64,000 nucleotides of DNA from Nautilus pompilius (Eukaryota; Mollusca; Cephalopoda; Nautilida; Nautilidae), in NCBI GenBank assembly GCA_018389105.1, contig JACATO010001069.1, positions 310,001-374,000 on the forward strand. Reading direction: 5' to 3'. Of the stretch, positions 3,101-52,500 are shown piece by piece. Under the pieces are notes generated by a model. That model was not told where the DNA came from, did no database searches, and saw only the letters and a list, made by a program, of their open reading frames with translations. Numbering within the stretch: position 1 is the first letter of the stretch; each line of letters opens with the position of its first letter. The translations under genes and the position numbers were made by a program.

Positions 3101-6100
3101 TATCTATGAATAGTACTCGAACCTGGGAACCTTGTATAGGACGCGATAGCCTCCTAACTTCGTGTACCCAGTATACTATATTATCTATGAACACTACACT
3201 AACCTGGGAACCTTGAATAGGGCGCGATGGCCTCCTAACCTCGTGTACCCAGTATATATATTATCGATGAACATTATTCGAACCTTGGTACCTTGAATAG
3301 GAGGCCATCACCTCCTAACCTCGTGTACCCAGTATACTATATTATCTATGAATAGTACTCGAACCTGGGAACCTTGTATAGGACGCTATAGCCTCCTAAC
3401 TTCGTGTACCCAGTATACTATATTATCTATGAACACTACACTAACCTGGGAACCTTGAATAGGGCGCGATGGCCTCCTAACCTCGTGTACCCAGTATATA
3501 TATTATCGATGAACATTATTCGAACCTTGGTACCTTGAATAGGAGGCCATCACCTCCTAACCTCGTGTACCCAGTATACTATATTATCTATGAATAGTAC
3601 TCGAACCTGGGAACCTTGTATAGGACGCTATAGCCTCCTAACTTCGTGTACCCAGTATACTATATTATCTATGAACACTACACTAACCTGGGAACCTTGA
3701 ATAGGGCGCGATGGCCTCCTAACCTCGTGTACCCAGTATATATATTATCGATGAACATTATTCGAACCTTGGTACCTTGAATAGGAGGCCATCACCTCCT
3801 AACCTCGTGTACCCAGTATACTATATTATCTATGAATAGTACTCGAACCTGGGAACCTTGTATAGGACGCTATAGCCTCCTAACTTCGTGTACCCAGTAT
3901 ACTATATTATCTATGAACATTACACGAACCTGGGAACCTTGAATAGGGCGCGATGGCCTCCTAACCTCGTGTACCCAGTATATATATTATCGATGAACAT
4001 TATTCGAACCTTGGTACTTTGAATAGGAGGCCATCACCTCCCTAACCTCGTGTACCCAGTATACTATATTATCTATGAATAGTACTCGAACCTGGGAACC
4101 TTGTATAGGACGCGATAGCCTCCTAACTTCGTGTACCCAGTATACTATATTATCTATGAACACTACACTAACCTGGGAACCTTGAATAGGGCGCGATGGC
4201 CTCCTAACCTCGTGTACCCAGTATATATATTATCGATGAACATTATTCGAACCTTGGTACCTTGAATAGGAGGCCATCACCTCCTAACCTCGTGTACCCA
4301 GTATACTATATTATCTATGAATAGTACTCGAACCTGGGAACCTTGTATAGGACGCTATAGCCTCCTAACTTCGTGTACCCAGTATACTATATTATCTATG
4401 AACACTACACTAACCTGGGAACCTTGAATAGGGCGCGATGGCCTCCTAACCTCGTGTACCCAGTATATATATTATCGATGAACATTATTCGAACCTTGGT
4501 ACCTTGAATAGGAGGCCATCACCTCCTAACCTCGTGTACCCAGTATACTATATTATCTATGAATAGTACTCGAACCTGGGAACCTTGTATAGGACGCTAT
4601 AGCCTCCTAACTTCGTGTACCCAGTATACTATATTATCTATGAACATTACACGAACCTGGGAACCTTGAATAGGGCGCGATGGCCTCCTAACCTCGTGTA
4701 CCCAGTATATATATTATCGATGAACATTATTCGAACCTTGGTACTTTTAATAGGAGGCCATCACCTCCTAACCTCGTGTACCCAGTATACTATATTATCT
4801 ATGAATAGTACTCGAACCTGGGAACCTTGTATAGGACGCGATAGCCTCCTAACTTCGTGTACCCAGTATACTATATTATCTATGAACACTACACTAACCT
4901 GGGAACCTTGAATAGGGCGCGATGGCCTCCTAACCTCGTGTACCCAGTATATATATTATCGATGAACATTATTCGAACCTTGGTACCTTGAATAGGAGGC
5001 CATCACCTCCTAACCTCGTGTACCCAGTATACTATATTATCTATGAATAGTACTCGAACCTGGGAACCTTGTATAGGACGCTATAGCCTCCTAACTTCGT
5101 GTACCCAGTATACTATATTATCTATGAACACTACACTAACCTGGGAACCTTGAATAGGGCGCGATGGCCTCCTAACCTCGTGTACCCAGTATATATATTA
5201 TCGATGAACATTATTCGAACCTTGGTACCTTGAATAGGAGGCCATCACCTCCTAACCTCGTGTACCCAGTATACTATATTATCTATGAATAGTACTCGAA
5301 CCTGGGAACCTTGTATAGGACGCTATAGCCTCCTAACTTCGTGTACCCAGTATACTATATTATCTATGAACATTACACTAACCTGGGAACCTTGAATAGG
5401 GCGCGATGGCCTCCTAACCTCGTGTACCCAGTATATATATTATCGATGAACATTATTCGAACCTTGGTACCTTGAATAGGAGGCCATCACCTCCTAACCT
5501 CGTGTACCCAGTATACCTATATTATCTATGAATAGTACTCGAACCTGGGTAACCTTGTATAGGACGCGATAGCCTCCTAACTTCGTGTACCCAGTATACT
5601 ATATTATCTATGAACATTACACGAACCTGGGAACCTTGAATAGGGCGCGATTGCCTCCTAACCTCGTGTACCCAGTATTATATTATCGATGAACATTATT
5701 CGAACCTTGGTACCTTGAATAGGAGGCCATCACCTCCTAACCTCGTGTTACCCAGTATACTATATTATCTATGAATAGTACTCGAACCTGGAACCTTGTA
5801 TAGGACGCTATAGCCTCCTAACTTCGTGTACCCAGTTATACTATATTATCTATGAACATACACGAACCTGGGAACCTTGAATAGGGCGCGATGGCTCCTA
5901 ACCTCGTGTACCTAGTTATATTATTATCGATGAACATTATTCGAACCTTGGTACTTGAATAGGAGGCCCATCACCTCCTATCCTCGTGTACCCCGTATAC
6001 TATATTATCTATGAACATTTTTCGAACCTTGGTACCTTGAATAGGAGGCCATCACCTACCTAACTTCGTGTCCCCAGTATACTATATTATCTATGAACAT

Positions 6101-6290
6101 TACACGAACCTGGGAACCTTGATTGGAAGCGATTACCTCCTATCCTGGAATACCTAATATACTATCTTATCGATGAATATTATTCGAACCTGGCTACCTT
6201 GAATAGGACACGATGGCCTCCTAACCTCGTGTACCCAGTATACTATACTATCTATTGACATTACACCTTCCTGGGATCCTTGTATTTGGA
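115..6290. repeat. Satellite array, 242-bp higher-order repeat made of three 80/81-bp monomers
   Basis: Nearly the whole of this stretch is one tandem array. Successive copies of the marker atgaatagtactcg start at 281, 523, 764, 1006, 1247 and 1488, giving a period of 241-242 bp. Inside each period the core cgaacct recurs at spacings of 81, 80 and 81 bp, so the unit is a trimer A-B-C. A carries tataggacgctatagcctcc, B carries aatagggcgcgatggcctcc, C carries aataggaggccatcacctcc, and all share cctcgtgtacccagtat or a close variant. I count 23 A monomers. The left edge is abrupt near 115; the right edge decays over 5500-6290. Short open frames inside the array are by-products of the repeat and not genes. 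Nothing identifies it as centromeric or otherwise functional. Confidence 0.97.
2925..3110. repeat. Dimeric variant unit inside the satellite (A monomer lost)
   Basis: Between the A monomers near 2700 and 3107 the spacing is about 407 bp instead of 484. Here a C monomer is followed directly by a B-type monomer that carries the A-like core ggacgcgatagcctcc, then C. This is what an unequal exchange between A and B monomers would leave. Confidence 0.8.
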
Positions 6291-12749: not shown

Positions 12750-15700
12750 TTATAACTGTCCACAGTTTACTATAACCACATCCTGTCTGGGTATACCAGT
12801 GCTTTGGCCTTGTTCCTCCATCTTTTTCAATACATTACTTCTTCGATCATCTTTCCAAAAACAACATGCTTTTTATCTAACCTGTAAGATAAAAGTATAT
12901 AAAAACATCTGGTCGACTTTGAAACTAGACAAATTGATGTGCTATAGAAAATATTTATTACATTCCTACTGAGGGAAATGTAGCACCAGTTATCTGCTAG
13001 AGCAGCACATCATGACACTAGAGGTGCTTTAGATTCAGCAGAGAAATCCCTACTAGAACTTTACTTTATAGACATGGGAAGAGCATAATGTACTAAAGCA
13101 AGTAATGGAATACCAAAAAGTTAAATGCTGCAGTTTATGAAACTTGTCTGCAGTCTAGTTATAATTAGCTAAAAATAAAGTTCCAGCTAGTCAAAAGCTC
13201 ATGGACTAATGCACTATATTTCCAACTATTTACTAGTATAGAAAATTCTAGTAATGTAACACTAAGATTTCTCCACATTTTGCTAATCAAGCATCACATG
13301 AAAACATCACTTCTTTTAAAGTGGTAAATTGAAATCATTTCATTATATACACTGGCAACAACAAAAAGAAAATTCTGAAATGGTTAGTTTTATTCACTAG
13401 ATAAACAGATTCTCCAATTCTGGTAAAAGAAATATATAAATTTTAGAGGTATAAAGAAAACAAGAAAGACCAAATCAAAAAATGAAATTCTAACAGAACA
13501 AGCATAAATTAGTCAATAGAAGTGGTCCCACTCACAGCAACTTTGCATGCTGGTCATAAATTTTTGGAAGGGACTAGAGGTAGACAACAAATCTTCTTAA
13601 AATATCCCCAAGTTTCAATAAAATTTAGCTTAGGAGACCATGCTAACCATATCTTACAGGTAATGGTTTGGTCACAGTAGATTACATGCCCAAAAATGAA
13701 GTTATCTCTAATAATACTGGCACATGGTCTGACAGATTATCTTTGAAACACACAGGTCTTTATGCCCATCCAATGAAATTCCTGCTTAGACCGCTATCAT
13801 AGTAATCCTTTTCCATGCTTTTGGGTTGATTGTATGTTCCACGTGATATGTACTCTCCAGAAGAGCATTAGTCACATTGGAGCCATATTCTCTTTACTAA
13901 AGAGTTGAGATTTGGCCTTCAGTCAAGTAGTGACCAAGCAACATTCACTTGAAATGGTCCCCATAGTCAAGAAACAACACGTGTGTATTTAGCCATTTGT
14001 CCACCTAGGTCCTGACTGTTTGGTTTATATCCTACCACCTATAGGTCTCCACTTTAGAGAAGCTTCCAAACAAATATTTAACAAGCCAAAACTGATGTGA
14101 TGTGAACAAGACAAATTGTCTTCAGTATAAAGACTGCCACTAAAAATGTAGGTTCTCATTTACATATTTCTTTGATGAAAGTTGTTACATGGAGTTTGTG
14201 TTGAATATTTGACAAATAGGAGCCAGCCATTTTAGAAAATTTATTTCTTCACTTTGAAAACCAAAAGTAGTTTCAACTATTTCTGAATATTAAAAAAGTT
14301 GTTTAAACAGTTTATCGTATTAGTTAAAAGATGCTTCTTTCATAAATGATTTTTTGTCTTTCTTTCAACAAATTTTTAAAATGTTAAGTTTACATTTTGT
14401 CAACATACATAGCAAATACTGAATATAAACAACCCAAACCTTGGGTTGTTGTTGCAGTTTAGAAAACTAATGTTTCAAAGTAAAGAACAAGACTACAAGT
14501 AAACTGTGTCTCGTCACCAGAAATCCACTTACCAGGATGTCTTTGTTGTGCAAATAAAAAATTGAGAACCATTTGTATTTGGACCAGCATTAGCCATGGA
14601 TAAGATACCTGGAATGAAAAAATAGAAGATTTTCTCTAGGAAGAAATACTATGCATAGGGAAGCAATGATTTAATGTTATACCCCTCCAGAACTGGTTTG
14701 TCAAATACACACCACCTGACTGTATTTAAGTGTGCTTTTAATCATTATCAAAAAATTATTCATTATCTGTAGTAATGGCAATTTTGAAAAAAAAAAAAAA
14801 AGCTTTCTTTCACGAGTAAAGCATTAAAAGAAATTCCACCGAATCAATTCTTACCTTCACCAGTGTGGGATAAAGTGAAATTTTCATCTGCAAATTTCTC
14901 GCCATAGATACTCTTTCCACCAGTGCCATCTCCTCTGGTAAAGTCACCTCCTTGGCACATGAACTTTGGAATTATACGATGAAAAGAGGATCCCTTATAC
15001 CCAAAGCCTTTTTCTCCAGTGCAAAGAGCACGAAAATTCTCTAGAGAAAAAAAAAAAGATTCCTAGAAGAAATTTTTCAAAGTTTCTCATGATGAAGAAT
15101 AGTACTTTACTTTACATTGGTATTGTACAGAATTATTCTAGCTTTGAGACTGACATCTGAGCAGAACTTTTCAAACTAAAATACAAATAGTTTTGAAAAA
15201 AGCAGATAGCAGCAGTGGGTTAAATAAACGCCTGCGTCAGCCTTAACTCATCTATTTTCCATAAATTATTTAGCTAAGAAAATTGTCAAAGCAAAATACC
15301 TAATCCTAATTATGTAAGCTTCTAAATGTATACCTAGATAAACAGCATTTATCAAGTAAGTAATTATCTAAATTCTATTTAGTTATATCTAAAAACATTT
15401 TACTTTGGAGGCATAATATCTATTCACAAACAATTTGATGTATTTTTCAAATTCCGGAGTAGAGTTTAATTAATGTTGACAAGACTTATTTAATATTAGG
15501 TCGTTACAGAAATGTTGGTTTTTTTATTATGTTAATTAGGGGTTCATTTTTTTTGCACGCTTGTGAAGGTGTATGTAGATAAGTTATATACCATTTTGTA
15601 GCATGTGCTTTAGCATACATTATACAAAACTTACCTTTTTAAAAATCATAAAATGGATATTTGTTTCAGGTTTCTGAGTGAAGCATGGATAGAAACATTT

Positions 15701-18700
15701 TTTGTGCCATTTTGCTTCACGAGTTCAAGCTGGGCCACAAAGAGAGTGAGGCAACTCGTGACATTAAGCAAACATGGGGCGAAGACACAGCAAACGAGCA
15801 AACAGTACAATGATGGTTTGCAAAGTTTCGATCAGTGATATGAGCCTCGAAGATAAGGAACATGTTGTCAGCAGTTGGAAGGATGTCCGCTGACTGTCTA
15901 AAAACTGCAGTTGAAGCTGATCCAAGAAAAACAGTCTGAAGAAATTGCTGGAGAGCTTGACATAAGCATTGCAATTGTTTCCCGGCATCTTTACACAATT
16001 GGCAAGGTGGAAAAGCTTGACAAGTGGGTGCCTCACAAGTTGAATGAACAACAACAAAATTGTCGATTGGGGATCTGCTCTTCGCTCATCATAAGAAACA
16101 AAACCTGGTGAAACCATCGCAACTGAAAGGTACTGTCATGAAGTAAATGTTGTTCATCAGAAACTCTCCAAACCACAGCTGGCGTTGGTGAATCGAAGAG
16201 GTCTAATCCTGCTCCACGACAATGCTCGCCCCCATGTTGCAAAAGTGACTCTTCAGAAACTGAACATGTTAGGTACAAAGTTCTCCCTCACCCAGCCTAT
16301 TCACCAGACTTTTCTCCAACAGACTACCACCTTTTCAAACACCTCAACAGCTTCTTCCATATGAAATCCTTCTCCAACCATGCAGCAGTTGAAACTGTCT
16401 TCCAACAGTTTATTGACTCCAGAAATCAAGATTTTTTTTTGAAAATGGGGGCAGAAATGAAATGATTGTAATGGAACTTACTCTGATTAATGAACTCCAC
16501 GTTCGGCAACGATATGAAGTCTCATTGTTGTGGTAAAAAAAAAAAACCAACAACTTCTGTAACAACCTAATACATTTCTTGAAAGAAGTCTGTTTTAAAG
16601 GAGGAAATACTCACCAACTGTTTTTGGAACAACATCAGCATCCAGCTATTTAAAATAAAAAAAAATTTGTTTCATTAGAATGAAAGCTCATTTTATTGTA
16701 TGTTACTTAGTCATGTTGAACAAACAAAAAGACTACAGTATCTTCACAATAGTTAGAAACCATATGGTGACATTCCTAGTTATTTGATTATTGTAAGAGG
16801 CAGCTTGGGTTTTAGACCTATCCACTGTTAGACAGAGCCTTACCTCCAGTTCCAACTCTTAAGTGTAAGGATAACATCAACACTTACATGCCAGAGTTTT
16901 CGTTTCTTTAGACACTATATGGGCATCCATTTGATTCATTGTGCAGCAAAGTACCATTTTATGGCAGAAATATTTCAGGAAACCAAACCTACCTTCTAAA
17001 CCATAAAGAGAAATTAAGTACCAATGTGATATAATATATTGCTTCAGAAAACTGCAACCTAATTTTGGCTAACTTAGGTCATTTTATTCAATGCAACACC
17101 TTCTATAAAATTACAATAAGGAAAAGACACACTTTTAGAAAAAGATACTTGCAAGCTATATTCTTTTGGTAACCAATAACCCTGGTCATAATGTATAGCC
17201 AGAGCACCAGTAACGTTCTTGGTGTTAACACATCCAAGACCCTCTTGTAGTAGCGTGCCACAGGAGGCATGCCACCACATCTAGGCAACTGTTAATCTCA
17301 ATTTACAGATTTTGTACTAATATAGTGGTTTTAGTTAATCAATGGCACACCAACAGCACCCAGCAGAGACTAAGTTAGTCTAGTGCTTTCATGTTATTTG
17401 CAAGTTTTCAAAGTGACGGGTTCTATATTTTTTTTTTTAACCATTTTGGAAAGATCTGACAAAAATTCAATTTCCAAGTGCATTTTTTAAAATGAATTTT
17501 AAGTAAAATCAACCTATTTGATACGATGCCAAAGTTTTTGAATGACTTGTGCAAAACAAATTACAAGGATGGATGCATTTTGTTTGTTTGAGTATCGCTC
17601 CAAAATTGACTATTAATCTAAAAGCGATTCTCTTAGCTTACACTTGGCAAAAGTTGTGATTCTGAAGATATGTCTGTCTTTGAGAAATGCTTCATCTCCT
17701 TCCCGTAAGCCATGAATAGGATAAGTGCTGAGCAGACTAGATTGCAGCTAAGTGTGGAGATGGAAACTGCTTATTTAATGTTGTTTCTAAACTTAACTGG
17801 AGATGAAGATAGCTCTAGGAAATTGAGAGGCAATGAAATCAGCAGGATGGTTAACACCTGAGATGGACAACTTTTGTCTTAGCTTTGAAGAGATTCATCT
17901 CCTGTGCAAAAAAAAAAAAAAAAAACTATTCATTCACCAGCATGGATAATTCATGAACTAGCAAACAGTGAATAAAGACCTGTCCACCAATTAAAAAGCA
18001 CACAGTGTACTGAAACTTTAAACTTAGAGATAACAGTGAACACTGCTCCTCAGTAACTGGTGCAGTGTGCTTTTGTTAAGGGTGTTGAACCATTTTTTAT
18101 CCACTTGTCTCCGGAGAAAATCTTTACAATAAAGTAGAAATTATATCAGTAAATTCAAGCAGTCATGGAACCAATTAAGGATCTGAAAGTGGAGATACTC
18201 AAATCTTCATTTATTATATCTCCATTGTTGCAAGAGGCATGCTTTAAAGATATTACAATCACCTCACATTATGGAACAAGACCCATGCACTGAAAATACT
18301 TCTAGTGTTGTTGAAAAAGCAATCTTGTCTAGTCTTAATCCTTTCCAGGTAACTCTGCTGCTTTTGGATGAACTGCAAGTCATCTGATGATCATTTCCAT
18401 ATCATACTAAAAGATGGTAGATGCAGAAAGATGCTGGTCCACATTATCATTTAATTACGCCTGGGCCAAAACTCTCTGCACAAGCTTTTCTGTTGTGATT
18501 GTATTTCATCTATGATGAGTAGTATCAGAAGGAAATATGGGTTTAACGTGAGTATACCTTGGATCACTTATTCGATTGGTCTTGACTGATTCAGACAAGT
18601 TGCAAAATGCATTTGATGTCTATAGTGACCAGAAGGCAGGATGGAAAAGAAAAAAAAAAAGTAGTTGAGTAGAGTTCAGATCTGCAGCTAATGCACACAT

Positions 18701-20739
18701 TTTCCTAGCCCATGGAGAAGATCAATCAGTATGGTGAGCAAATGCAGACAGCCACAACAGATAACACCTAGACCATCTCCTTTGGTGGTGTTAGGTTTTT
18801 TTGTAGCAGTAAACATCAACATGGCCTTCATTCCATTCCAGCCAACAATTTTTGGAGTACAGAGCGAATCAAGAAATTGAATCAGTATTCATACCTCTGA
18901 AACAAGTCAGTGCCCATTTCTAATGACCCCAACAGACCAGCTGCTCAAAATTAGACTGCTCCTTGATGTGGGGCATAGTCAGACTTTAGGCTAGATGCTC
19001 AGTGTCTGAGGTTGCTTCTGCTCCAGGAAAGAAAGTGACATTCAGGCATACCTAAATAACCAAGGCCATCACATTCTAGCAAAGATCAAGGGGAGGGGAA
19101 AAAAAACAAACAACCCGAATGCTATGCTCCAGGAGTGGCTGCAAAACCCTTTCTGGCCATGGAGTGGAAAACTGCTTCTACTGCCAACCCTGTACCATTT
19201 CTCTGTACAGGATGGAAAATTTTATCAACCACATGATGAATGGAATGACAAGCAGTTACTGACCACTTCCTGGAAGTAAATGATTTTACTTTTTCTTCTA
19301 CTTTCTGCACTAAAAATTGAATTTTTCCCTTTCATTTTCTGAATACATTTCCCTCTGATTTGGATTACTAAACTACATAATTTACTAGTTGAGTCAGCCA
19401 CGACTCCCTAGCATACTTTCTTAATGATTTTAATCACAATGCACCAATCTTGCAAACTGTCTGCTCCTGAAGGATTAAACAAGATTCACGCTTTGACGAT
19501 TTAAAATTATGAAGTTTTCTTGAACAGTTAGTGTCACATCATTAATATTTGCTGGTAAACTTAACTTCAAAAATTCCAAACTTTTTAAATTTCAAAGTTA
19601 GCAGTAAGTAAAACCGAGCATTGAGCTAAGAGCCTAAGTAATACCTTGTAATGAAAAGGTAGTTCTACCTGGCATTTCTTAATTTTTAAGACTCCAATAT
19701 AACATCTCTCCACACCCTGAAAGAAAGTATACATTTTACTCTTGAATCTCAGATCTGTTGAGATCTCAAGGGGAAAGATGAAGACAGACCAATATATGGT
19801 AAAAATTCTCTCACTGGCAATTTAATACAATTTTCATTATCAAAAAGAGAATGGTTTAAGTATTTGATGAGTAAAAGAATCTAGCTCCAGGAAATTTATT
19901 CCCTACAAGCCCTAAAATAGAAAAGTTGAGCAGGGCCTAGAAAGAGACATGGACCACCTCTAACTCTTGTCGTCGAGGGAAGGAAAGGTTCAAGACTAGA
20001 ACACATTTCAGAATTCTGCTTCGATTGAGAAGTGTAGCTAAGTCAGAGAGTGGCAGGAACTAAGTAACCATAACGTCACCAACTTATCTGCAGTCTGTCA
20101 CCAGTTTTAAACTCGGAACAGACTTAACGGATCAAAATGCCAGATTTTGTTTCAAACTAGTGGCCACCACGTACAGTCAGCAGTGACCTGCCGAAAGCAT
20201 GCGCTCCTCGTGTCGGCACCCTGACCGAGCAAAGTCAACGAGCTATTGACTCAAAGACGCAGGAAATATAATTTTATTTTACAAGATTTGTTTGACAATC
20301 AGGATGCGCATTTTCCTGGATTTTTCTTTAGACTACGTAATTAACTCTAGATTTTATATAGACACTTTATAATTTTAAAAAGTGAAAAGAATTACATTAA
20401 TATACAACGCGAGTAAAAATGAACATTTAAATATTAAATCCCAAAACAGCGCGCTCGCTGTTTGTCATTATATTAAATACGAAAGCCTACTTGATTTAGC
20501 GAGGTACATCTCCATAGAATGCACCAGACGCAAGTCGAACTATTAGCTCTGAGAGCGCTAGAGATTAGGCACAGTATCACAATGCACCAGCTGTCTTACT
20601 TCGCCGACATCTTCTGTACCCACCCACACACACACTCTCTCTCTAATGAATTATTAACGGAGCTCACCTGAAAAACCATGCGGCCAATCGGTTTTAGGTC
20701 GATTTCTATATCGAAGAAACATTTCACCTTACCAGCCAT
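12750..20739 (-). CDS. Cyclophilin A-like peptidyl-prolyl cis-trans isomerase, copy 1 (frameshift in last exon)
   Basis: Five coding exons on the minus strand: 20739-20668 (24 codons, start [14 protein letters not shown]), 16645-16615 (31 bp), 15040-14855 (186 bp), 14608-14533 (76 bp) and 12881-12750. All junctions are GT-AG and in phase. The family catalyses prolyl cis-trans isomerisation, usually in the cytosol. Catalytic residues in human cyclophilin A numbering are present: R55, F60, M61 and Q63 in [16 protein letters not shown]113 in FFICT, W121, L122 and H126 (WLDKKH). The last exon is one base short. After KMIEEVM the frame reads Y-stop (TGA at 12829-12827); the next frame continues with [12 protein letters not shown] and ends NCGQL with TAA at 12752-12750, the usual cyclophilin end. 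So this is either a damaged copy or an assembly indel. AATAAA lies at 12618-12613. The intended product is about 165 residues. Confidence 0.9.
15496..16570 (+). mobile_element. Mariner transposon, TIR-bounded and degraded, in intron 2 of cyclophilin copy 1
   Basis: The left end ttaggtcgttacagaaatgt is mirrored at the right end, which reverse-complements to ttaggttgttacagaagttg. Both ends abut a TA dinucleotide, the mariner target duplication. The ttaggt tip resembles cecropia/Hsmar-type mariners. Transposase remnants read forward: an N-terminal helix-turn-helix piece ([17 protein letters not shown], from about 15690), [11 protein letters not shown] near 16030, the catalytic DNARPHV motif near 16220, then after a frame change [16 protein letters not shown]. 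Frameshifts and stops make it inactive. At about 1075 bp it is shorter than a full mariner of about 1.3 kb. It fills most of intron 2. Confidence 0.93.
16646..20667 (-). other. Intron 1 of cyclophilin copy 1
   Basis: A 4.0-kb intron between the first coding exon and the 31-bp exon. I recognise no gene or transposon in it. Poly(A) stretches near 17910 and 18648 are the only simple repeats. Confidence 0.6.
20623..20644. repeat. (CA)n/(CT)n short tandem repeat
   Basis: The plus strand reads cacccacacacacacactctctctct immediately inside intron 1 of cyclophilin copy 1, about 25 bp past the donor of exon 1. Confidence 0.85.
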
Positions 20740-20806
20740 GGTCGATAAAAGACGCGTCTGTCGTAAAACAGCAATCTTGACGGGGGTGACCAACCGCCTA
20801 TACAAT

Positions 20807-20813
20807 CTTTATA
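20807..20813 (-). promoter_or_regulatory. TATA-like element upstream of cyclophilin copy 1
   Basis: The minus strand reads TATAAAG at 20813-20807, about 70 bp before the ATG at 20739. Transcription would be expected to begin near 20780, leaving a 5' leader of about 40 nt. The surrounding 20000-20820 stretch is relatively CpG-rich, as promoters in such a genome often are. Confidence 0.5.
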
Positions 20814-20829
20814 CGGCGCGATAACCTTT

Positions 20830-23800
20830 TGACCTCACGAGAGAATAACATTTTAATTCGAAAGAAAGCTTTAAGCAAATCTTTAAATCAGATTATTTAG
20901 AAATCAGCAAAAATTGTATTAATAAAATGATCAAAATTAAAATAGCAAGCATTATATTAATAGTTCTTTTTTGGACTCAAAAAATATCTATTTTACTAAA
21001 ACACACTTAACATCATTACCACCCCAGCCTCCCTTCACTGCTATGACTCACACCCGTAGATTTTTTATCGTTTGGTTATCTTTCGAAAAGTTTTGGCCGT
21101 CAAAATAATAATAAGAATAAAAATGAATAAATTTAGCGAAGAGAAAATGATATAAAACTTAAATAAAAATCTTTGATGATGAGTAGCTATGTTTTCAAAG
21201 AGAAATACAAATTTTTATTGGAATTCGATGCTGTTTAGACCTGAATCTGCTTCTTTGTATTATAGACTAAGAACAGCACTTACGTCGTATGTCCTTCTTG
21301 GCAGCTGGTTAACAAGAGATAACGTAACACTTAATTACTTAGACAGGTGCAACACTCCATTCCTGGAGCCTCCTTTATTCTTTTTGTAGAATAACCCGTA
21401 TTCATTTTCCCCACAACTTGTACATTTTTTTTTAGATACTATAGAAAGATATCTGCTTAATAGCATCAAAGCTGAACGACAATTGAGAATTAATGTTGAT
21501 GTGCCTTATGGTTTAGTGTTGAATTGTGGTAATATACTTATAAATACTAATCGGTTGTTTTGGTATTTAAAAGAGATAAAGGACACAACAATAGCCAGCT
21601 AGATGCCTAGGTATTAGGGGAAACTTATCTTAAAATATAGAAATAAACTTTACACAGCTTTTGCCATTTATGGCTACTATTATTCAAAGCAAAGAATTTT
21701 CAAGTTTGGAGAGCTTTCTGTTCATAAGGTAATTTTTTGGACATGTATTAAATTTTAATTGACAGTGATCTATATAAATCTTAGGATTTATATGCCAAAA
21801 TTTAGTGCAGGTTATGATGGGGCACAGTGAGACAGATGACTTACTACATATTTCAAGTGGACTTTAATAGAATTGATCTGTTAATAACAAGCTAAAAAAA
21901 AGCAAACATTTAATAGAAAAAAGGGAGAAGTTTAAATATGGAGTTACATGATCAAGTATGAAAAATATAGGACTATCTATATATTGGTTTACTTAAAGCT
22001 CAAAACGGGATGCATCATACATTCATTGGATTAAAAAATGTGAATATTTAGTTATAAGCTGGTTTCATGTTTTCTACACCCTGTCTCAATGTACTCCATC
22101 AGCCATCTCACTCTGCCACTTTAGCAGGGCAGAATGAGACAAATTATGACCATTCTTTGTCGTTCTTGAAGCATAGTATGGTAATTTGTTGTGTATTGTT
22201 ATGGTAGGTAAGTTCAATAAATAAGTGCAATGAGTGAAAACTTTTCTGTCTCACTGTGTCCCTCCCCTTTCCCATACTTAATATCAGACTTGAAAAAGCT
22301 GGTTTGAAAACAACTCATCAAATTTTTTTCAAACACATTTGCAAGGGGAGGTCACAAGAAGCAACTGATATCACTAGCATAAATCTGCTGAAAATGAAGT
22401 GACATTGTTCTGATGACATAGTACATTCTGTTTTACTTGATACAAGAATATTTTTGAATTTATAACATAGTGACAATCCCAGAGGAAGACGTCATTTTTT
22501 TTAAACTTAAAGCTGAAAGAGCTTGTTTGGTAAGCTAACAGCTCTATCATGAAGAGGGTCATCAGCTTATGCTCAAGATTCTATCAAGCTCACCTGGTGG
22601 TGTTAGCGAACAATGCAGAGGATATGTTCCCACTCTCATTTCTTGCTGACACTTGCAATTGATGCCACTCAAGTTTTACTCCTTGGAACAGTTTGTGCAT
22701 CCAAGTCTATTCTTTTGTACTCACTTTGTGCATCACAATAGCCAAAAACATTTAACTGTTTGAAGATATATGATCAAAACCCTTGATTCTGTTGAAAATC
22801 TTTGAGGTTTTTCCTAAGTGTCTAATAATAGGTAAATCTCCCTCTCTATATATATTTTTTGTTGTTCTGACAGGTATAATAAAAAATATAATGAAAGTTT
22901 ACAACTACATGATACTTTATCCCTGGGGATTTAAGATAAAAATACTTGGTCAATGCTACTAAATATCAAGTTTTGCTACTCTAAATTTCATACTTTGTGC
23001 AGCAACCATTCTTTCACCATCCAGAGGAGAGTTCAGGGCAAAATTTTAGAACATAACAGCAACAGAGAGAAAAGGAAAAAATACAGATCTTTGTTATCTG
23101 TTAGATGGTCTCCCCTAATAAACAACTACATCCCCCCCAACCTTGGCTATTGCTCTGACTGTTAAATCCAAATGAGGGAAGCAATAGGATTTTTTATCCT
23201 TAAAATCTTTGCTCCAATTATATAATTCTACAACCTTCTTAGCAGCTTATTAGTCATTTCACCTTTCTATTAAATATGGTTTCTCCAATAAACAAAAAGT
23301 ATTCTTAAATACAAGACCAGAGTTTGAGGGAAATTTGTATAAAATTCTGACCTCTATGGCCAATCATTAAGAATGCTATTACATATAGTGTTAATTTTTT
23401 TATAAATTCTATAACATATTTAAAGATTGAGCAAGTATAAGCTCTCACCTACTTTAAATACTGCACTCACAAATATCTATTAACATGCCCTCACGAGCCA
23501 TGTAGTCACTCTTTACTATGGGGTTGTTGATATCCCCTAGGTTGTCATTGCAGAAGCATCCAAAATGGTGTTATTTGAACATTTCACACATCTTTCAGAA
23601 CAAAAATTGAAAAAGGAATGAAAGTTTAACACCATTAGAGTTTTCAGTACTACGCAGTACAAATGTATACTAAAGTATGCAGATATAGTCCCAAGGCAAT
23701 ACAACACAGAAAGCAGGCAGCACATGTGATCAATTCTTACTGCTTCAACAAACTGATGAAGCATTTAACTTTATCAGTAGGAAAGCTGTTTATCTGACTG

Positions 23801-26200
23801 TCTTCCTCAAACATCACCAGCACTGCCATGGGACTAATTGCATTGTAATTAGGAGCTACTTTTGTTGTACTGGACATTATTAATGCTTCACTAGAGTTTC
23901 TACTTATGAAGCTGGGGGAGAGATTATTCAAGTTTCTCACGATGCACCAAGAATGAAATAGAGGGCAAACAGCTTCTCTCTGCCCACGGAAATTTTAAAC
24001 AAAAAATAAAAACGAAATCTATTTATCTGCAATGACCGGAGTTTTTGTATAAGTGACCACCTGACTCATGTGGGGCATGTTAAAATACTTTATATACAGC
24101 AGTCAATGAGAATCTGATACAGCAAACTACTGCAATACATTTTTATGAATTATGGGCAAATCCATACTTCCAAAATCACTTAAACACCAAATTTTTTTTT
24201 TGAACTATCAAACAGTGTAGGGGCAAACTGAATGCAAAGTTGTTTATTTTTCCATGTAAACATTAATTTAAAAATAATTTTGGTTCAGCACAAAAATCAT
24301 TGCATCAAGAATTTTACATTTAATTTCATGTGAAGCAAAAAAACATGTATTCCTTATCCAAATCAGTTCACTGATTTTATTACATATTGATGTATTGTAG
24401 GATTTATAGTTACACAACACTTGGCAGTCCATTATTGGAAATGGACACCTTGGGATTGTATACAAATGTCACAAACCTACTTGAAAAAATCTGTTGCACT
24501 TGGGTCAAGGCCCTCCAGCTTACAATGGTTTTTAGCCTTAGGTATCTCCATGTTTAATATTTTGGTTGTTGTCCTAGGGAACACACACTACCTATAAGCT
24601 GGCATTGCAGTCCTGGAACACTAAGTGTTTATCTTGCTATCTCATCCAGTCCTTGAACAACATGCAGGATGCCTTACCACATTGCCAACAAAAGTGTACT
24701 GAACAACAAAATTTGAAGTCATCAGGAAAATATCACTTGCTGCCATTGGACCTTTATCTAAATGAATTCCATATTGATCTCTGGAATGTAATTCCTCAGG
24801 CTAATGGTTTCTCAAAAGACAAAGATAACAAGTATAGTCAGCTGATGATAACTTTGTGAAGCACTAAAATGTATAGTATGCCATTCTGAACCAAACCTAC
24901 TAAAAGCATCTTATCACTTATTGCCTGCAGATTACAAATATGGAATTCAAAAGCCCAACTGATGTCATCTACAAACCTATCATTTATACCCAGAAACATT
25001 TCAAAAGTAATGTTTTAAACAATTTGTTCCAGACTACCCAGTCCTGAATGTCATTTATTTCCAGAAATAGATTTTTGGCCAGAGTAAACAGCCCATGGTA
25101 GAGTGTTCTTTGGTGTCAAATATCTAGGTAAAGTAGTGAGTGCACTGTTTTATTCAGTTAAATTGACAAAGGATAAAAAAGGTAGCTATTTTTGACAAAT
25201 CAAATTTCCCAAGTTTTTTTTATTTTTTTTTTTTTTACAAATTTAGCATAGCACATTTCACAAAATCTACTTTACAGTAAATCCAGCTGTATTTTGCTAG
25301 ATTTAACTGTTTTTAAAAACTAATTGAAAATTAACTACAAAGTATGACTAAAACAAAAATTTTAGTGCTATGAATTAAAAATTAATGCATAACAGAAATA
25401 TAAATGTTCCTAAGGAACCCACCCAGGCACATTCTGATCAATAACTCAAATGTTGAAATTTGGGCCAAATTCTACAGACCAATAACTAAGGAGCCACTTA
25501 TGAAGATAATATACCAGATATAAGAAAACTGCTTAATATTACACTATTCAGTATCCCTAAATGTATAGAACTGTCTACTACAGGATACTTAACATGTTTA
25601 ATTTGCAAATCCTATCCAGGCTATTCTATTGTAAAAACTATTTTATTCTTAAAGACCATAAGGCTTGCACAATGTATAACAGTAACTTTTTTTTTTTGCA
25701 TTAGAAAAATTGTTAGCAATGCTATCAATTCAGCATCGACAGAAAATTTCTGCCTTAAAGGAGCTCTAACATTACAAACTAGCTTAACTCAAAAGATTGT
25801 AGTCAAGAATGTAATTGAATACCAAACATTTCATAATTTAAAAAATAACTTTCACAAAACCATCCCCATTTAGCACAGCATAAAGAAATTAAATTTTCAT
25901 AAATTTAGGGTTATTTCCAAATTAAACAATACTCAATAAATATTCCAAAACACAGAAAGATGTAAGTCAAATTTATTACATCAAATATTATATTAATATT
26001 GAATGGTTAATTTTCTTTACTAATGCATGTGATGAGATTTGCATCCCAAGACAGCTACACAAATGAACTGCAACACTTTAAAATTAATGACAGAATGTAG
26101 AATTCATTTAATATCCAATAATGTGGGCCTCCATCAATACAAGACAAAATTGAAAAGCATTAGATTATTTAAAGAATTTTTTTTGTTGCTGGTTTAATGA
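20830..26200. other. Intergenic DNA between cyclophilin copies 1 and 2
   Basis: About 5 kb of AT-rich DNA between the promoter of copy 1 and the 3' end of copy 2. I can support no coding exon. The one structured item is the inverted repeat at 21819-22262. AATAAA for copy 2 lies at 25977-25972 on the minus strand. Confidence 0.5.
21819..22262. repeat. Inverted-repeat element, possible MITE
   Basis: The left arm ggggcacagtgagacaga (21819-21836) is repeated inverted as tctgtctcactgtgtccc (22245-22262), with a single mismatch. In the middle, around 22105-22140, catctcactctgcc and gggcagaatgagac form another inverted pair of the same flavour. The size of about 440 bp fits a small non-autonomous DNA transposon, but I see no convincing target duplication. 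Confidence 0.45.
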
Positions 26201-26231
26201 AATAAACAGATGCACTTCAAGGAGAGGTTAA

Positions 26232-37932
<11,701 letters not shown>

Positions 37933-38842
37933 GCTTACAGCAGACAATTCTTCCCGCACAAACCGAGTCAGCAACTGCCACTAAGTCAACATTCAAAATG
38001 TACTGGCTCTTTAGCCTCTACCCCAAAATCATCTCGAAAACACGTGAATGCGTGAACCGACAAAAAATTACTTTTCTAACTCAAACTTATGAAGGCATTT
38101 TAACAATTTAGGCTAAAAGAATTAAATTTGATAAAATTTTTATCATTTTAATTTTTAATGTCTTCAGATCTCCATTTCGTTGAATGATCGGAACCTGTAG
38201 CTACATTACGTCATGGTATAGGGAAATCCCATTAATAATTAAAATAAAGGTAAATCTAATATTATTATACCCAATTTTGAATAAAATTTGTTTATGAGTA
38301 AATAGATCGAGTTATATTAGAATATACACTGTTTTGTCTGTTGTTATAAGGTTAATATAAGTGTTTATTAGGTACGTATTGCACCCCTTAAGTCAACTTT
38401 ACTGTTTAATTTAATATCAAAATATTAATATTCTGTAAACTGTCGTTGTTTTTAAATACGAAATTTACCCCTGAGTAAAATGACTATTAATAACAAACAA
38501 AAAAATGTAGAAAATACTTGATGTTTTTTATTATTCCAATTACTCACGATTTCCTCCCACGTTACGATCTTCGATTGGAAGGGATAGAACCAATGCCATG
38601 TTCAAAAGATAATTAGGTGGAGTCATGAGAACTAGTTAACTAAACAGTTCTCAAATGTTGTGATGGTTTCCTGCTTCCTTATAAACTCTGGATTATATTA
38701 TGGTATTGATAACAACAAAATGCCATGAAATCTTTTTATTTCCAATTAATTTTGAAGCTCCAAAACTGCAAACAGGTCTACAGCAATATTAACAACTGAT
38801 TAATTTCAATTTATTCAGGATCTTGGAAAGGTGACCACTGAT

Positions 38843-41800
38843 CTACAGCTGTCCACATTCAGCAATGATAACCTTTTTATGTGGCTTACTGCTATCCTTA
38901 GACACCAGCCCTTCCATCTTCTCTACATATTTGTAGCCCTCAACCACTTTTCCAAAGACAACATGTTTTCCATCTTGCCTGGAAAAAAAACAAAACTAAA
39001 AGGTGACTATAGAAAGGATATTCCAATTGCATAGTGTCTGATAATCATGATCTTTTAATACTAACAATAGAAATAATTAGCTGATTTGTATTCCATGAAA
39101 GCAATTCCTATTGGTTTTATTGACACTGTATCAATAGTATTTATATTTTATTGGTATGCACTCCTACTTCAGCCGCATTATCACTGACCAAAACAGTTAC
39201 CACATTAGCAAAAAAATAAAATGAGAGTATAACACGCTGTATACATTGTTATCGGAATACAGTTGGATTAACCACCATATAAGAAAGCATTTGTCTATTC
39301 AGAACATTTATTTTCTTTGAAAGTCTTAAAACTTTGATGTTGTATTAGTTTATAGTAAACGGCTGTAATTATTCACAATCTTAACTTTCTATTGGTTTGA
39401 CTGATGTGTGTTAGATTGTTCATGTAGCAACAAAAAAAAAAAGGTACAAATATCAGTCTGATCTACAAAACAAAATACATGGATAAAAGGAGGCAAATGC
39501 AATAATAAATATTTGCTTTTTGTTTTGGGGGGTTGTAATTCTACATAAACTTGAGTCACCTGCATTCAGGAGATTGCCAAATTCATGAAGACTAGCTTTG
39601 CAAGTTCCAATACAGGATGCTAAGAACATTGCAAAAAAAGTTCAAATGCTAATGGGCTGACAGACATCCCACATAACAGTAATTATTGCCCACCAGCAAT
39701 GTTGGTAGTGGTTTGAGTTTAGATAACTACAGGACATTTTTGGCCATTTTCTCTTCAGACCAGTATATGGCATGCCATCATATCAGGATTGCTGTCATCA
39801 GGTGAAAATGGTTGGGCTTGTAGAAGCGATTTAGGATTGTTTTAAACCTTTAGCATACCATAGCATGTCTTCTGCATCTCATAGGACAAAGAGGAATGAC
39901 ATTTCAGCCAAGGTTTATGGTGGCAGTCTTATCAAGATGGCATGTCTCTATTTAGAGTTCCTCTATTATAGGAGCTGCAACATGTTAAAGATTTCCTAAT
40001 CCAGAAATGATGCCGAGAACTTAAAAAATTTATGTTTTCGTTACATGACTTAGACAACAGTCCAAGTGTTACAATTTTTACAAAATACCCAAGGAATTAG
40101 TTAATACTTCATTCAACATATGTTCAGTCTCGTGTATAAGAAAACGAGAACAAAAATGGCAACATAAATTAATGTTTTATCATAAATTACCATTGTAATG
40201 ACAATTATGTACATGATGGATTGTTAGTGCCACTAGATACATATTTTTATCTTAGAAGTTCAATATTTTATCAATTATTCAGCAAATGAATTCAGTTTTT
40301 CTTCATGAATTAATAAGAAAATTGTTTCAACTCAGAACATTTCTCATTGCTACATATTTTAACCATTAAAATACTAGATAATAGTTTTGTTTTCTGTCCA
40401 TGTGCATACATTAGCATGTTTATAAGTATTGCCAATGAAACTGATTTCATTTAGTTTGGTGGTGTTACTTAATCAAAAATTACATAGGTACTGTACAAAA
40501 ATTAAAATTAAAGATGGGTGCAGGTGAGTTATCTTGTCTTTGTGGTAGCTGTGATGGTGGTTCCTGATAGGTAAAGGACCCCTCCCCCATTTGCTCTCTG
40601 GCATGCCTTCTCAGAGTCTTCTGTACCAGCCTTGCTATGCACAGGGTTTCATTAGCATACTTTTATTGGGTTTTTTAATTTTTGATGAAGTTCAGTGCCT
40701 GTGGGGGGGGGTGGAATCTTGAGGGCTAAGATGGAAACTAACCCCTTAGGTCAGTTGTCAACCTCACAGTTCACCAGGGCCAACATCAAGCAATCTCATG
40801 ATTCTGCAAAGCCAGAGATGTCCCAAAACATCTGCACAAGATCAAAAAGAAACTAATTTTGTATCAATTTAGGTCTGTATAATACATAAAATTTGGATAA
40901 TAGCTATGCTAAATCAGTTTTAATATACTCTTAAAAATAAAATAAAATAAATAAGTAACAAGCATTTCCATGCCCACAGTGTCTGTATGGTACTTTGTTC
41001 AAGCAACTGCTCATATTCTGAAAGGGACCAAAGAAACCCACTCATGACATCACACGTACAACATACAATGTTATAGCCATCTTCTCTGGAACTGAGACTC
41101 ACACATGCAAATGAACCATCATCATTTTCTCTATAAACTGGCTGCACATGGTGTAAGTCAGCTTAAGAATGCCTAGATGTCATTTAATACCAAATGAGGT
41201 GGTTCTTCATCTGGATGTTTCAAGGAGAAATGTAAGACTGCTGTTGCTTCACAGTAAAATATTCAATGCAATACTCTTGAGTACCATCAGATTGGCCAGT
41301 TCATGGAGAAACCCCATTTGTGGTCCAAGGGTTACAATAATCCCCTCCCTGTGAGAATTACCATGTCATCCTTGCCAGAAGAAACAATTTTTTTTTTCTT
41401 TTTTAACACCACAATCTCTCCAAATGACCTCTGAAGAGCAGCCAAGCATAGAATTTTGACAAAGATTGCAACAGGTTTATGCTAGTGGTATGCTGCAGTC
41501 CAGAAAATATCTGCAGCATATTTCTCTAACATAGTAATATTGATAGCTAACATGTAATGGGTGACAAAACATCACAAATTGAGGTTGAACCATTGATGCC
41601 ATATTCTTTTCACTGAGGAATCTAGACACCAACAATGATGATTTGCTAACTGTTCTATTACTCAGCATTATCGATTTTACGCATGCTGCATGTTAGTGCT
41701 GCAATTCAGGTCCACAACACCACTTGCATGGTGTGGCCTGCATGATGTCCGGACTTAGAGGTGTGTTTGTGGTTGCCAAGTCTGCTTGCAATCTCCTGAG

Positions 41801-44433
41801 CAGCTGGAGGTGGTCCTGACTGAAGAATGAAGCAACATCTTACAGTGACAGCTGAATCATCTGATTTGGTTGATAGCAAGATGCGTATGGCCACATATGT
41901 TATTAAAACCTTCTCTGGCAATGTTAGTTTGTATGTGATCATTTTCAGACTGGCATCATTGCCATTTTACATGCTCATTGGAGTTGGCCAATTTGTTTTC
42001 AACAAAATATTTCACTTAGCTTGATGTTAGTGGGAGCTTTTTTTTTTATTAAATGGAGAGTTTAGATCAGTATGCAGGAAGGTCCTCTTCAACCAGAATA
42101 TGAACACGTGTGAACAAACTACCATACAGAAGGCTTACATATGATGCTTGTGGCTGTATGTGTGTGTGGGGTGTGTCGGGGAAGATGGAACTCATCCAGA
42201 TCTACTAAACTGCAGTCATAGCTGAATAACTTAAAAATTATTATTATTACTCTGAATGGGGGGCCCTTTATTTTTTTTCTTCCTGATTGTTGAAAATGTG
42301 TGAACACTCACCAGTCTGTTTTTGCAGTGCAGATGAAAAACTGAGAGCCATTTGTATTTTGTCCAGCATTGGCCATGGAAAGGATGCCTGGGGGGGAGTA
42401 AAAAAAAGAAAATTGAAAAATCTAAGTTTCCTTGCTAAGTGTGATACAAAAAAAAAAAAAACCAAATGATTAGTTATAACAAAATTAAAAAATTATCAAA
42501 AATCTTGACTTTTCTCTTACCTTCACCAGTGTGGGATAAAGTGAAATTTTCATCTGCAAATTTCTCGCCATAGATACTCTTTCCACCAGTGCCATTTCCT
42601 CTGGTAAAGTCACCTCCTTGGCACATGAACTTTGGAATTATACGATGAAAAGAGGATCCCTTATACCCAAAGCCTTTTTCTCCAGTGCAAAGAGCACGAA
42701 AATTCTCTAGAAACAAACATAAAAAAGGTTATTTACAATAATTGGCCTAACAAATACCAACAAGCTTTCAAAAATTCAAACACATCCATCACAAGCAGCT
42801 GTGCAAAAAGACAATTGATCTTTATTTTAAGAAAAGACAATAAGCTCAGAGCTTTCTAGAAAAACTACTATCATACAACTTGCTGTTGACATTCATTGTT
42901 GGATGTATAACTTTAATTTCCTTATATTTACTTGTGAGAATAAAAAAATTAATCATTAAAGTCCAAAAGATCCTAGACATGTTTATCTGCAAAGTGAACA
43001 TTTCTTTAGTAAATTCTAGTCATAAAAATGGCAACTATCTGTTTTTCTCTTTGTTTATTATTTACCGAGCCCTGCAAAAATAAACTTGAGTACTCCCTGA
43101 AGCAAAAGTAATTTTCAATGTGTCACTTATGTATATTTAAGAGTCATGAAGAATAACAAAAAATAAAATAAAAATCACATGGAATTAATATCCAGTAGCT
43201 TTTCATAGTGACTTATGAAGTGCAAGGACAAGCTGTAACAAGGATGCAATGAGAGTTTGTATGATAGCATGGTCCAAATTTTGCCAAAATTCAGTCCATT
43301 TTACCATCAGATGTACTACAAATATAGATGATCTTGTTTACTGCAGTTGGCTATCACAATTCATCAAGGCTGTTATTTTCCCAGAAACAAGTCTTTTCTG
43401 TCTCTTCAATAAGATGCTGACTTTTGAAATGCAGAAAATGTTTTGAACTGCATAACCTCTTGTTGAAAGAATGGAATAGATTATGAGAGAAGATGAATAA
43501 GCATGCAACAGAATTCAGACATCCCTCATTCAACAAGTCATTTGGGACACTGGAAAGGCTCTCTCCACAAACCATCACACTAAAACTATTGTATTGAAAT
43601 TCTTGACTGGCCTTTCTTGACAAATATGTTCATCTATCTAATGTGAATTGATGAAATTGAGACTTGTCAGAACAGGACAGATATCCAAAATATCATGGGT
43701 TTCTTTTTCATTTCCTGGCCCATGCAAACCTGTGCTTACATTGACTTTAAGCAGTGATTTTTGCCAAACCATGCATCCATTGTAGCCCAGTTTGTGCAAA
43801 TAGTAATGAGCTGTACATTGCAACACATCTATAGTATTGGCAATGTCTGCAAGCCTTGTGCATGAAATAGACTTCGTGTGACAAACAAGGGTTTATTTTT
43901 TTTTAGTGCTGTAACCATAGGATTACTGTCTTGGTCTATAGTTAGTTGCTCTTTCATTTGCCTGATGAAAATTAACAATGATATGCACCATCCTATTTAC
44001 AAGTCCAAATTCTGTGCTATCTGCCTCTCACTTTGATCAGTCTGATTTTCCAATCACTCTACTTTGTGAGAATGGTGATATATCCCAAACACTAACCATA
44101 CAAGTATCTTTAACATTATACAAGGTCCACTGTGTCATCAAGTGCTATTTATAGCTTGTGTGCACAGCTCCCTGGGTAAAACAGATCATGCGATTACTTT
44201 CATGGATGGTTATTTTATTGTGGAAGGGCTCTGTAGTTTTAAGTTTGATTAATTATTTTTACTGTGTGAAAATTTATTCCTCTTGTTTTGAAAAAATTTA
44301 TATTTATGTATGATGCATTGAAAATTTGAGTTATGTACAAAAATGTTACCATGGTTTTGGTGGTTTTGAAAATTAATTTGAAATATTAAAAGTGAAACTC
44401 ACCGACTGTCTTTGGAACTACATCATTACGCAG
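38843..44433 (-). CDS. Cyclophilin A-like peptidyl-prolyl cis-trans isomerase, copy 3 (first exon not found)
   Basis: Four exons on the minus strand: 44433-44403 (31 bp), 42706-42521 (186 bp), 42387-42312 (76 bp) and 38978-38843 (136 bp, ends AECGQL-TAG). Unlike copies 1 and 2, all four read through without a break. Splice sites are GT-AG and phases match the family. R55, F60, M61, Q63, F113, W121 and H126 are kept. Two usually conserved positions differ: AGPNTNGS reads AGQNTNGS (P105Q), and the residue after W121 is Q instead of L (WQDGKH; L122Q). The C-terminal half ([20 protein letters not shown]) is distinct from the other copies. I could not find an exon with a start codon and FFDI-type strand between 44434 and 53000, so the 5' end is missing, very divergent, or lies elsewhere. 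AATAAA candidates are at 38815-38810 and 38740-38735. Confidence 0.88.
39000..42300 (-). other. Last intron of cyclophilin copy 3
   Basis: A 3.3-kb intron between the 76-bp exon and the last exon. Open frames in it (for example 41147-40920 minus, 41827-42024 plus) match nothing I recognise. Confidence 0.5.
43130..44330 (-). mobile_element. Tc1-like transposon remnant in intron of cyclophilin copy 3
   Basis: At 43826-43640 on the minus strand [18 protein letters not shown] closely follows the Tc1 transposase pattern LHKLGYxGRVARxKPLL, and a worn SVMVCG (Tc1 GGGSVMVWG box) follows near 43570. The rest is broken by stops. Possible ends are suggested by attttcaatg at about 43111 and its inverted counterpart cattgaaaat near 44320, but the terminal repeats are too worn to fix the borders. 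It fills most of the intron between the 31-bp and 186-bp exons. Confidence 0.7.
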
Positions 44434-49593: not shown

Positions 49594-52500
49594 CAGTGAT
49601 CCTCAAACTGTGGATCACGAGCATCTTTGAGGGAGACGTCGCAAAACTTTTTAAAAACATTGCCTCAGGTATGATAGTTCGGCTCAGACTTATGAGCTTA
49701 TGAATCAGTTTTCCACCTGCTTCCTTTTCTTAGCAGAGGCACAAGGGTTCTATAAACCACCAACAATATTGCATTCTTTACATTATTTTGAAATGCTTTT
49801 ATTATACTCGCATTCCCCGACATTGCCACGTCTCGCGCTGCCAGTGATGTTGTAAAGGGAAAGAAATAAACTGAAAGTAATATATTCATATTTCTGGGGG
49901 CTACAGAATTGAAAAAAAACTCAAAGGAATATACTTATATTTCATATATTTCAAAGAAAATTTTAAACAACAACAACTATTATTAAACATGCATGCTTGG
50001 AAAATTCGGTAAATGTTTTATTATTAAACAAACAATTATTATTATCGAACATGAGTTTCTGCTGCATGTTTTTGGAAGCTGGAGGCAGTGAAAAATTCTA
50101 AAGACATGGATGATGAGCAACATGCATGGAACTCAAGAGGACTTAATAAATAATTCACATCTGGTCAAATTCTGGTGGAGATCCAGGCCACACCCTGAAA
50201 ACTTCTTCCATAAATCTGTAGAGTACTTTGATCTGGCCTCTCAGCACTATCCAATAAACTGGTGAATATAAAACAAGGGCATAACTTCCAGCTTCCAAAC
50301 ATAAGCGATGGAAACTAGTGTTGTTTAAGAATAATTATTGTTTGCTTAATAATAAAATATCTTTACCAACTTTTCTAGAAAATGAATGTTACTTTCAGTT
50401 TATTTCTTTCACTTTCATCCCAGTCATCAGCTGAAAGATTACCAAATATGGCAATTATTTGGCTAAATTTATCTGCTAAAATCTGCCATTGTGTCAAAAA
50501 CTTTGATAAAGTTTTGTAATTTGCTTTGATATGAACGTAATGTGTCGTGGATTGGGGTTTTTAACGCAATTAAAATGAACAAAACTCATTTCTGCAGAGA
50601 ATAACTGATGCCTATTGATCATGTGACAAGCAATTATTGGATATTGGCAATCGATTGACACTGAATTCTGATAGTCAGGTTAGACTTCTCTTGAAAACAT
50701 TCGCCCCCCCCCCCTGCTAGTGTGGCGTGTAGTACTATATCCAGTCTTCAGTGTGTCTGTAGAAGTGTACATGTTAGTAATGTTCAGTAGTTTTATCTGT
50801 TATTTTTCATTTTTTGCCTTTCAATGGAAGTATCTTTGTTGGGTATTAAGAGAAAAGCTAAAGATGACCAATCTACCGGTAGTCCTGATAAAAGCCAGCC
50901 AAAGTCAAGAAAGTATGATAAAAGTTACGTATCATCTGGTTTCATGGTGTTTCTGTTACTGGAGAAGAATGGCCTCATTGTGTTATTTGTCATAAAATGC
51001 TGTTTGCTGAGTATGAAGCCAAGCAATGACACCTAGAAGCAAGTCAAGCAGACTTAGCTAACAAACCTCGAGATTTTTTCATCCTTAGAGATGAAATGAA
51101 GCAACAAAACATGAGTCTAGTTAAATGTATTTGTCCCTTCGAAATCACTTTTAGCTTCTTATCAAGTTGCATACAAAATTCCCCAGTGCAAAAAGCCCCA
51201 CACAATTGGAGAAAATCTAATTCTTCCAGCAGCTATTGATATGGTTACAACTGTTGGGGGAAGTCAAGTGCCAACTAGCTTTTAAGTATCCCTTTGTCTA
51301 ATGACAGTTTCCTGCCGAATCACAGATATAGCAAAGGATCTAAATGAGCAACTAATTGAAAAGATAAGAAACAAACCATTTGCCATTCAGATAGATGAGG
51401 CCACAGATAAAGGATGCTCATTTAATAACATACGCTAGATTTGTTGAGCAAAATAGATGAGGATTTATTCTTCTGTAAAGAAATTACAAGGATGAACAAA
51501 GCTGAGGACCTTTTCAGTATTAATGATAGCTATATAAATGCAAATCTCTTAGTGGTCAAACTGCATGGGGATATGCACCAACGGAGCACACTCTGTCAGG
51601 CTGTCACTGAGGACTTCAGGCTTTAATACACCGAAAATTTCCTAGTGCTGTTTAGACACACTGTACAATACACAGGCAAGCTCTTGCTATGAAAGATTTG
51701 AGCCCAGCATTGGAGGTTCTACAAACTGTAAATGTTGTGAACTATTTAAAAAACAGGCCTGTAAATGTGAGGGTGTTTGCAAAGTTTTGTGAAGAGATGG
51801 GTGCTGAACACATTTCTTTAATGTGAATCAAGATGGCTATCTCGGGGAAACATTTTTGAACTGAGACATGAACTTTACAAGCATTTAACTGTGAAAGGCA
51901 TAGTAGTGCACATGTTTATTGACTGTAATTTCAATATGCAGTTACTCTTAATACCTCATTGCAAGGTGGTGATAACAAAATTCTTCAACTCAATGACAAA
52001 TTAAAATCAATTATTAGGAAAGTTGAAGTGTGGCAGAGTAAAATGGAAAATGCAAATTTAGACTTGTTTCCTACTTTAAAACAATTTATTGAGAGCAGTA
52101 AGACACGAATTAGTGAAGATGTGAAAATTTGTATTTTACGTGACCTCTCTCCTCTAAAATTTCACTTTCATAACTATTTCCCAGATGTGGAAATAGAAAA
52201 ATTTGACTGGATAAGGAACCCAATCGATGCTAAACTGATAGCTGGTATACTCAACACTATCGAGGAGAAATTCATTGATGTCTCTGCTGACACTTCTTTA
52301 AAAATAAAATTCCCAACAATTTCTTTGGATCAGTGAGCAAAATCAGTACAAAGAATTAAGCGAGAAGGCTATGAGAATACTGATTCTGTTTGCAACATCC
52401 TATTTGTGCAAGTCAGGGTTTTCTACAGTTGCTGCAATAAAAAACAAATACTGATCCAAAATAAATGTGGAACGAGAAATGGGAGCAGCTGTCTCGAAAA

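Follow-up and report, generated by a model that had tools for sequence, protein, structure and literature searches.

A near-identical exon in two diverged cyclophilin genes of Nautilus pompilius points to recent interlocus gene conversion

A tandem array of three cyclophilin A-type genes, each on the minus strand, lies in a 64,000-nucleotide stretch of the genome of the cephalopod Nautilus pompilius (assembly GCA_018389105.1, contig JACATO010001069.1, positions 310,001 to 374,000 of the forward strand). The whole stretch is called here the window, and positions are counted from its first letter unless given as contig positions. Judged by their sequences, the genes (copies 1, 2 and 3) are old, diverged paralogues, and one exon of 186 base pairs (bp) is almost the same in copies 1 and 3. 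This exon has very probably undergone recent ectopic (interlocus) gene conversion between the two copies, with genomic DNA as the template. The gene parts are as follows.

20739 down to 12750, minus strand: copy 1, whole
20668-20739, minus strand: copy 1, first coding exon (from tblastn and a splice donor)
16615-16645, minus strand: copy 1, 31-bp exon
14855-15040, minus strand: copy 1, 186-bp exon, AG/GT borders, GAT (Asp); partner of 42521-42706
14533-14608, minus strand: copy 1, 76-bp exon
12750-12881, minus strand: copy 1, last coding exon, with a 1-bp frameshift leading to an early stop
37932 down to 26232, minus strand: copy 2, whole
37849-37932, minus strand: copy 2, first coding exon
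29096-29126, minus strand: copy 2, 31-bp exon
27836-28022, minus strand: copy 2, diverged 187-bp counterpart of the 186-bp exon, frameshifted by 1 bp at a run of five A close to the 3' end
27319-27394, minus strand: copy 2, 76-bp exon
26232-26364, minus strand: copy 2, last coding exon, frame intact
44433 down to 38843, minus strand: copy 3, whole, no first exon recognised
44403-44433, minus strand: copy 3, 31-bp exon
42521-42706, minus strand: copy 3, 186-bp exon, AG/GT borders, AAT (Asn); partner of 14855-15040
42312-42387, minus strand: copy 3, 76-bp exon
38843-38978, minus strand: copy 3, last coding exon, frame intact

The Pfam family Pro_isomerase (PF00160) is matched by copy 3 (E 1.1e-44), by copy 1 up to its early stop (2.9e-41) and by copy 2 up to its frameshift (4.9e-21), and the best solved relative of copy 3 is a chain of peptidyl-prolyl isomerase A (PPIA; 8g9q_D, E 1.1e-69). 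The 186-bp exons of copies 1 and 3 have the same orientation and are separated by 27.7 kb on one contig.

These two exons differ at 1 of 186 bases, which makes one codon of the coding strand GAT in copy 1 and AAT in copy 3. A preceding sequence-only reading had given exactly these coordinates and this substitution, and its statement that synonymous sites are identical agrees with the count of 0 differences over 38.0 sites (Nei-Gojobori method, own script, used for all synonymous counts). The divergence it described in the rest of the same gene pair is equally evident, with identity of 24/31 in the 31-bp exon, 61/76 in the 76-bp exon and, in a gapped alignment, 70/131 in the last exon (61 differences). 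Synonymous differences between copies 1 and 3 reach 3.0/8.3 and 9.0/16.2 in the 31-bp and 76-bp exons and 22.7/24.7 in the last exon, a saturated figure from an uncertain alignment (copy 1 is frameshifted there), so that the two adjacent exons offer the safer comparison. First exons do not enter it because none was recognised in copy 3.

The excess of identity is statistically strong. Differences in the 186-bp exon (1/186) are far rarer than in the two adjacent exons (22/107; Fisher p 8e-10) or in the three other exons compared (83/238; Fisher p 6e-23), and if the 186-bp exon had even the least synonymous divergence of any neighbouring exon, 0 differences at 38 synonymous sites would have a binomial chance of 4e-8. 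In a GENECONV-like permutation on the 150 polymorphic columns, the longest run of agreement between copies 1 and 3 was 23 columns, a length reached in 0 of 20,000 shuffles (shuffled maximum 17); with one mismatch allowed the run grew to 47, again reached in 0 of 20,000 (shuffled maximum 18). Self-BLAST of window positions 7201-64000 (E <= 1e-10, low complexity masked, satellite at 109-6282 left out) gave these two exons as the only pair with at least 90% identity. Synonymous identity is thus bounded within the exon and far exceeds the flanking divergence of the same gene pair, and base alignment, per-exon synonymous divergence and a conversion test, the checks proposed in the sequence-only reading, all favour conversion.

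It is unlikely that the identity arose as an artefact of assembly or consensus, in which the sequence of one exon was put in the place of the other or imposed on it by polishing. The assembly may be imperfect: two of the three genes carry 1-bp frameshifts, in copy 2 at the run of five A, and a block on contig C2008 is duplicated, maybe falsely, at 99.7% identity about 600 kb apart. The two exons, however, sit in different introns with correct borders, one difference between them has been kept, and the neighbouring exons are not homogenised; had RNA reads been used for polishing, other exons should have been homogenised or repaired as well. Neither a duplication like that on C2008 nor a fault of the frameshift type would by itself make one exon identical inside two different introns.

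The limits of the tract bear on the nature of the template. Past the 186-bp exon, copies 1 and 3 stay identical for 5 bases on the acceptor side and for 6 on the donor side. Runs of this kind are 2-7 bases long in the other pairs and at the other borders compared, and at the donor of this exon the other two copy pairs share just 2 intronic bases. A few intronic bases at the donor may therefore belong to the tract, and the 5 + 6 bases are compatible with a tract, with shared ancestry or with splice consensus. The flanking introns are otherwise different, much as had been noted at the outset: BLAST of copy 1 against copy 3 listed no match at E <= 1 for intron 2 or for intron 3, and the remaining intron pairs gave only short matches of 14-44 bases. 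The lowest E among the intron matches (0.002) links intron 3 of copy 1 with the region upstream of copy 3, which are not corresponding positions. In whole-locus BLAST the copy 1/copy 3 alignment reaches into the A-rich end of intron 2 by 21-24 bases, and the copy 1/copy 2 alignment does much the same.

A spliced messenger RNA (mRNA) or its complementary DNA (cDNA) from one cyclophilin copy could also have templated the repair of a single exon in its paralogue, with all introns kept; a template of this kind had been suggested in the sequence-only reading, and the tract does end at, or 5-6 bases from, both splice sites. Since neither intron 2 nor intron 3 matches between copies 1 and 3, any template, genomic DNA or cDNA, loses homology at the splice sites; a tract copied from genomic DNA is likewise forced to end near them, and the position of the borders does not separate the two models. 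The signature of a spliced template, intron loss or a tract crossing an exon junction, is not seen: the introns are present and the adjacent exons are unconverted. The 6 intronic bases on the donor side, if part of the tract, would exclude a spliced template, but ancestry or splice consensus explains them equally well. A DNA search of the 728-Mb assembly with the exon gave four matches, namely copies 1, 2 and 3 and, on contig C990, a stretch of 90 bases matching at 79%; the latter sits in an intron-containing gene with exons spread over kilobases, so that no retrocopy was found by this search, which skips common words and scores best candidates only, making the absence less than absolute. The recent, exon-confined conversion tract of the sequence-only reading has thus stood up to per-exon divergence, permutation and intron comparison, and its mRNA or cDNA template appears quite improbable.

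Copy 2 provides the measure of constraint. Its version of the exon, already described as far more different, is 74.7-75.3% identical to those of copies 1 and 3 over the whole alignment (80-81% over the part aligned by BLAST) and differs from both at 18.5/32.7 synonymous sites (0.57), counted over the codons ahead of its frameshift. In the other exons synonymous differences are 24.2/48.9 between copies 1 and 2 and 25.4/49.4 between copies 2 and 3 (about 0.50). Copy 2 is as diverged in the 186-bp exon as elsewhere; the exon therefore evolves no more slowly than the rest of the gene, and the third copy has diverged normally within the tract. Extreme constraint, or a local mutational cold spot that froze synonymous sites in copies 1 and 3 since duplication, is consistent with the identity of the exon alone and is very hard to reconcile with a copy 2 that is no less diverged there than in other exons; codon constraint had been named beforehand as an explanation that could overturn conversion, and the divergence of copy 2 disfavours it. 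At the variable codon copy 2 has AAT, as does copy 3, so the derived base would be in copy 1. Two successive unequal crossovers through the exon, or insertion of a duplicated exon, could yield a product that looks alike among tandem genes of the same orientation, but they require at least two events where one conversion is enough and, judging from the gene order, predict that the intervening 27 kb, copy 2 included, would be gained or lost, which makes them highly improbable.

Under gene conversion the DNA of the 186-bp exon would have been copied recently from one of copies 1 and 3 onto the other, probably in a single event of ectopic homologous repair without crossover. The tract would span the exon in full and extend past its ends by no more than 5 + 6 bp. 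The exon may have acted as an island of homology between introns already diverged past alignment, which would have limited the tract, and the single Asp/Asn substitution is most simply seen as a mutation after conversion.

Several points weigh against this explanation. The block of homology is short for ectopic conversion. G+C content at third codon positions in the shared exon (19/61) lies between that of the other exons of copy 1 (11/48, in-frame part) and that of copy 3 (32/79) and does not indicate the donor. The 76-bp exon (14533-14608, 27319-27394, 42312-42387) is possibly a mosaic, copies 1 and 2 being identical over the first 40 bp and copies 2 and 3 nearly identical over the second half; 131 of 20,000 shuffles attained the longest run shared by copies 1 and 2 (6 columns), and 683 attained their run of 7 columns with one mismatch. 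This weakly hints at an extra small tract, that is, at more than one event. The evidence comes, moreover, from one assembly.

Complete intact reading frames are not present in every copy. The sequence-only reading had overlooked that the copy 2 exon has 187 bp with a 1-bp frameshift and that the last exon of copy 1 is frameshifted. In otherwise open frames, these are either recent lesions or consensus errors, and some of the defects in copies 1-3 may be assembly errors. The case for conversion holds whichever cyclophilin copy is functional.

The first exons of copies 1 and 2 lie in CpG-dense stretches (observed/expected 1.17 and 1.02 vs a median of 0.18). A first exon of copy 3 was not found in the interval from 44434 to about 57150, where a neighbouring, presumably DLG5-like gene has its 3' end, or farther on as far as contig position 453000. 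The search used tblastn with the first exons of copies 1 and 2 and with human and generic cyclophilin first exons as queries, and covered the window to contig position 403000 (best 60 matches), matches above contig position 420000, and contig positions 300001-453000. On the minus strand upstream of copy 3, the sole tblastn match at E <= 0.5 was at window positions 60820-60776 (E 0.27); it adjoins a transposon-like element, has no cyclophilin motif and was rejected. Scans for ATG-to-donor exons and for CpG density upstream of copy 3 gave no first exon either: CpG peaks at about 60.1-60.7 kb were assigned to a transposon-like element, and a weaker peak at about 48.2-48.5 kb has no ATG-to-donor exon inside. 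The first exon of copy 2 matches human PPIA only weakly (E 6.0), so a diverged first exon of copy 3 may have escaped the search.

The gene next upstream of copy 3 is a MAGUK gene, with exons on the minus strand at 57150-62700. Its guanylate kinase-like part, at 57150-59892, suggests that the gene is DLG5-like (tblastn, lowest E 2e-11). Further pieces, at 61.1-61.3 kb and 62.5-62.7 kb, were assigned to the gene on visual inspection; two short stretches of it compared with Pfam returned no match. Inside this gene lies a short CpG-rich element (about 60220-60790), which we take to be pogo/Tigger-like. For the open reading frame at 51959-52336 only sub-threshold Pfam matches were obtained. Intron 2 of copy 1 contains a broken transposon remnant with frameshifts and stops on the plus strand at 15660-16540, presumably mariner-like by its resemblance. 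The satellite array at 109-6282 has a unit of 81 bp (85% matches) and is better described by a three-unit period of 242 bp (25.4 copies, 96% matches).

Elsewhere in the assembly, the block on contig C2008 measures at least 9.9 kb, carries a cyclophilin gene and occurs near 0.94 Mb and 1.54 Mb (L046 and L047), its 99.7% identity including the introns; the duplication is either recent or an error of the assembly. Mitochondrial DNA has many nuclear copies (e.g. L052): a COX1 probe had 151 scored matches, and TGA stops occur in most of the listed ones. One such copy appears to have nad2 beside cox1, with TGA read as Trp, the naming and order of these genes being our assumption; this combination suggests a lophotrochozoan, either annelid or mollusc.

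A review of Caenorhabditis paralogues notes that conversion between such genes has mostly been described in exons and that introns, which diverge faster, may hinder it; the review also gives a first tract estimate of >191 bp for C. elegans and mentions tracts that do enter introns (PMC3966223). The copy 1/copy 3 exon resembles the paralogues described there in its exonic tract, linked genes and length of about 190 bp, and differs from the cases in that account in that one whole exon alone was converted and the other gene parts are strongly diverged (PMC3966223). The Dlx pair of the annelid Capitella teleta is described as a similar mosaic, with conversion restricted to the most conserved part of linked paralogues; unlike the cyclophilin copies, the Dlx genes are inverted tail-to-tail and the tract enters some of the adjoining intron (PMC3199776). 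Zebrafish NLR-B30.2 genes are likewise reported to be homogenised independently in different gene parts, judged by synonymous divergence, but in a family of nearly 400 genes with ongoing conversion (PMC4852459), against three genes and one recent tract here. Spider silk genes were set aside as a close parallel; by the account given, homogenisation is mainly within genes, with some conversion between them (PMC9779670). In literature searched by title and abstract opening, conversion of a cyclophilin exon was not reported.

Annotators should be aware that a tree of the 186-bp exon would mistakenly group copies 1 and 3 as though they had duplicated recently. The case also shows that a tract ending at splice sites does not in itself argue for RNA-templated repair. 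Beside these known systems, the exon of copies 1 and 3 most likely adds a further clear instance of an established process, a neat natural example of a single exon passing from one paralogue to another while everything else remained distinct.

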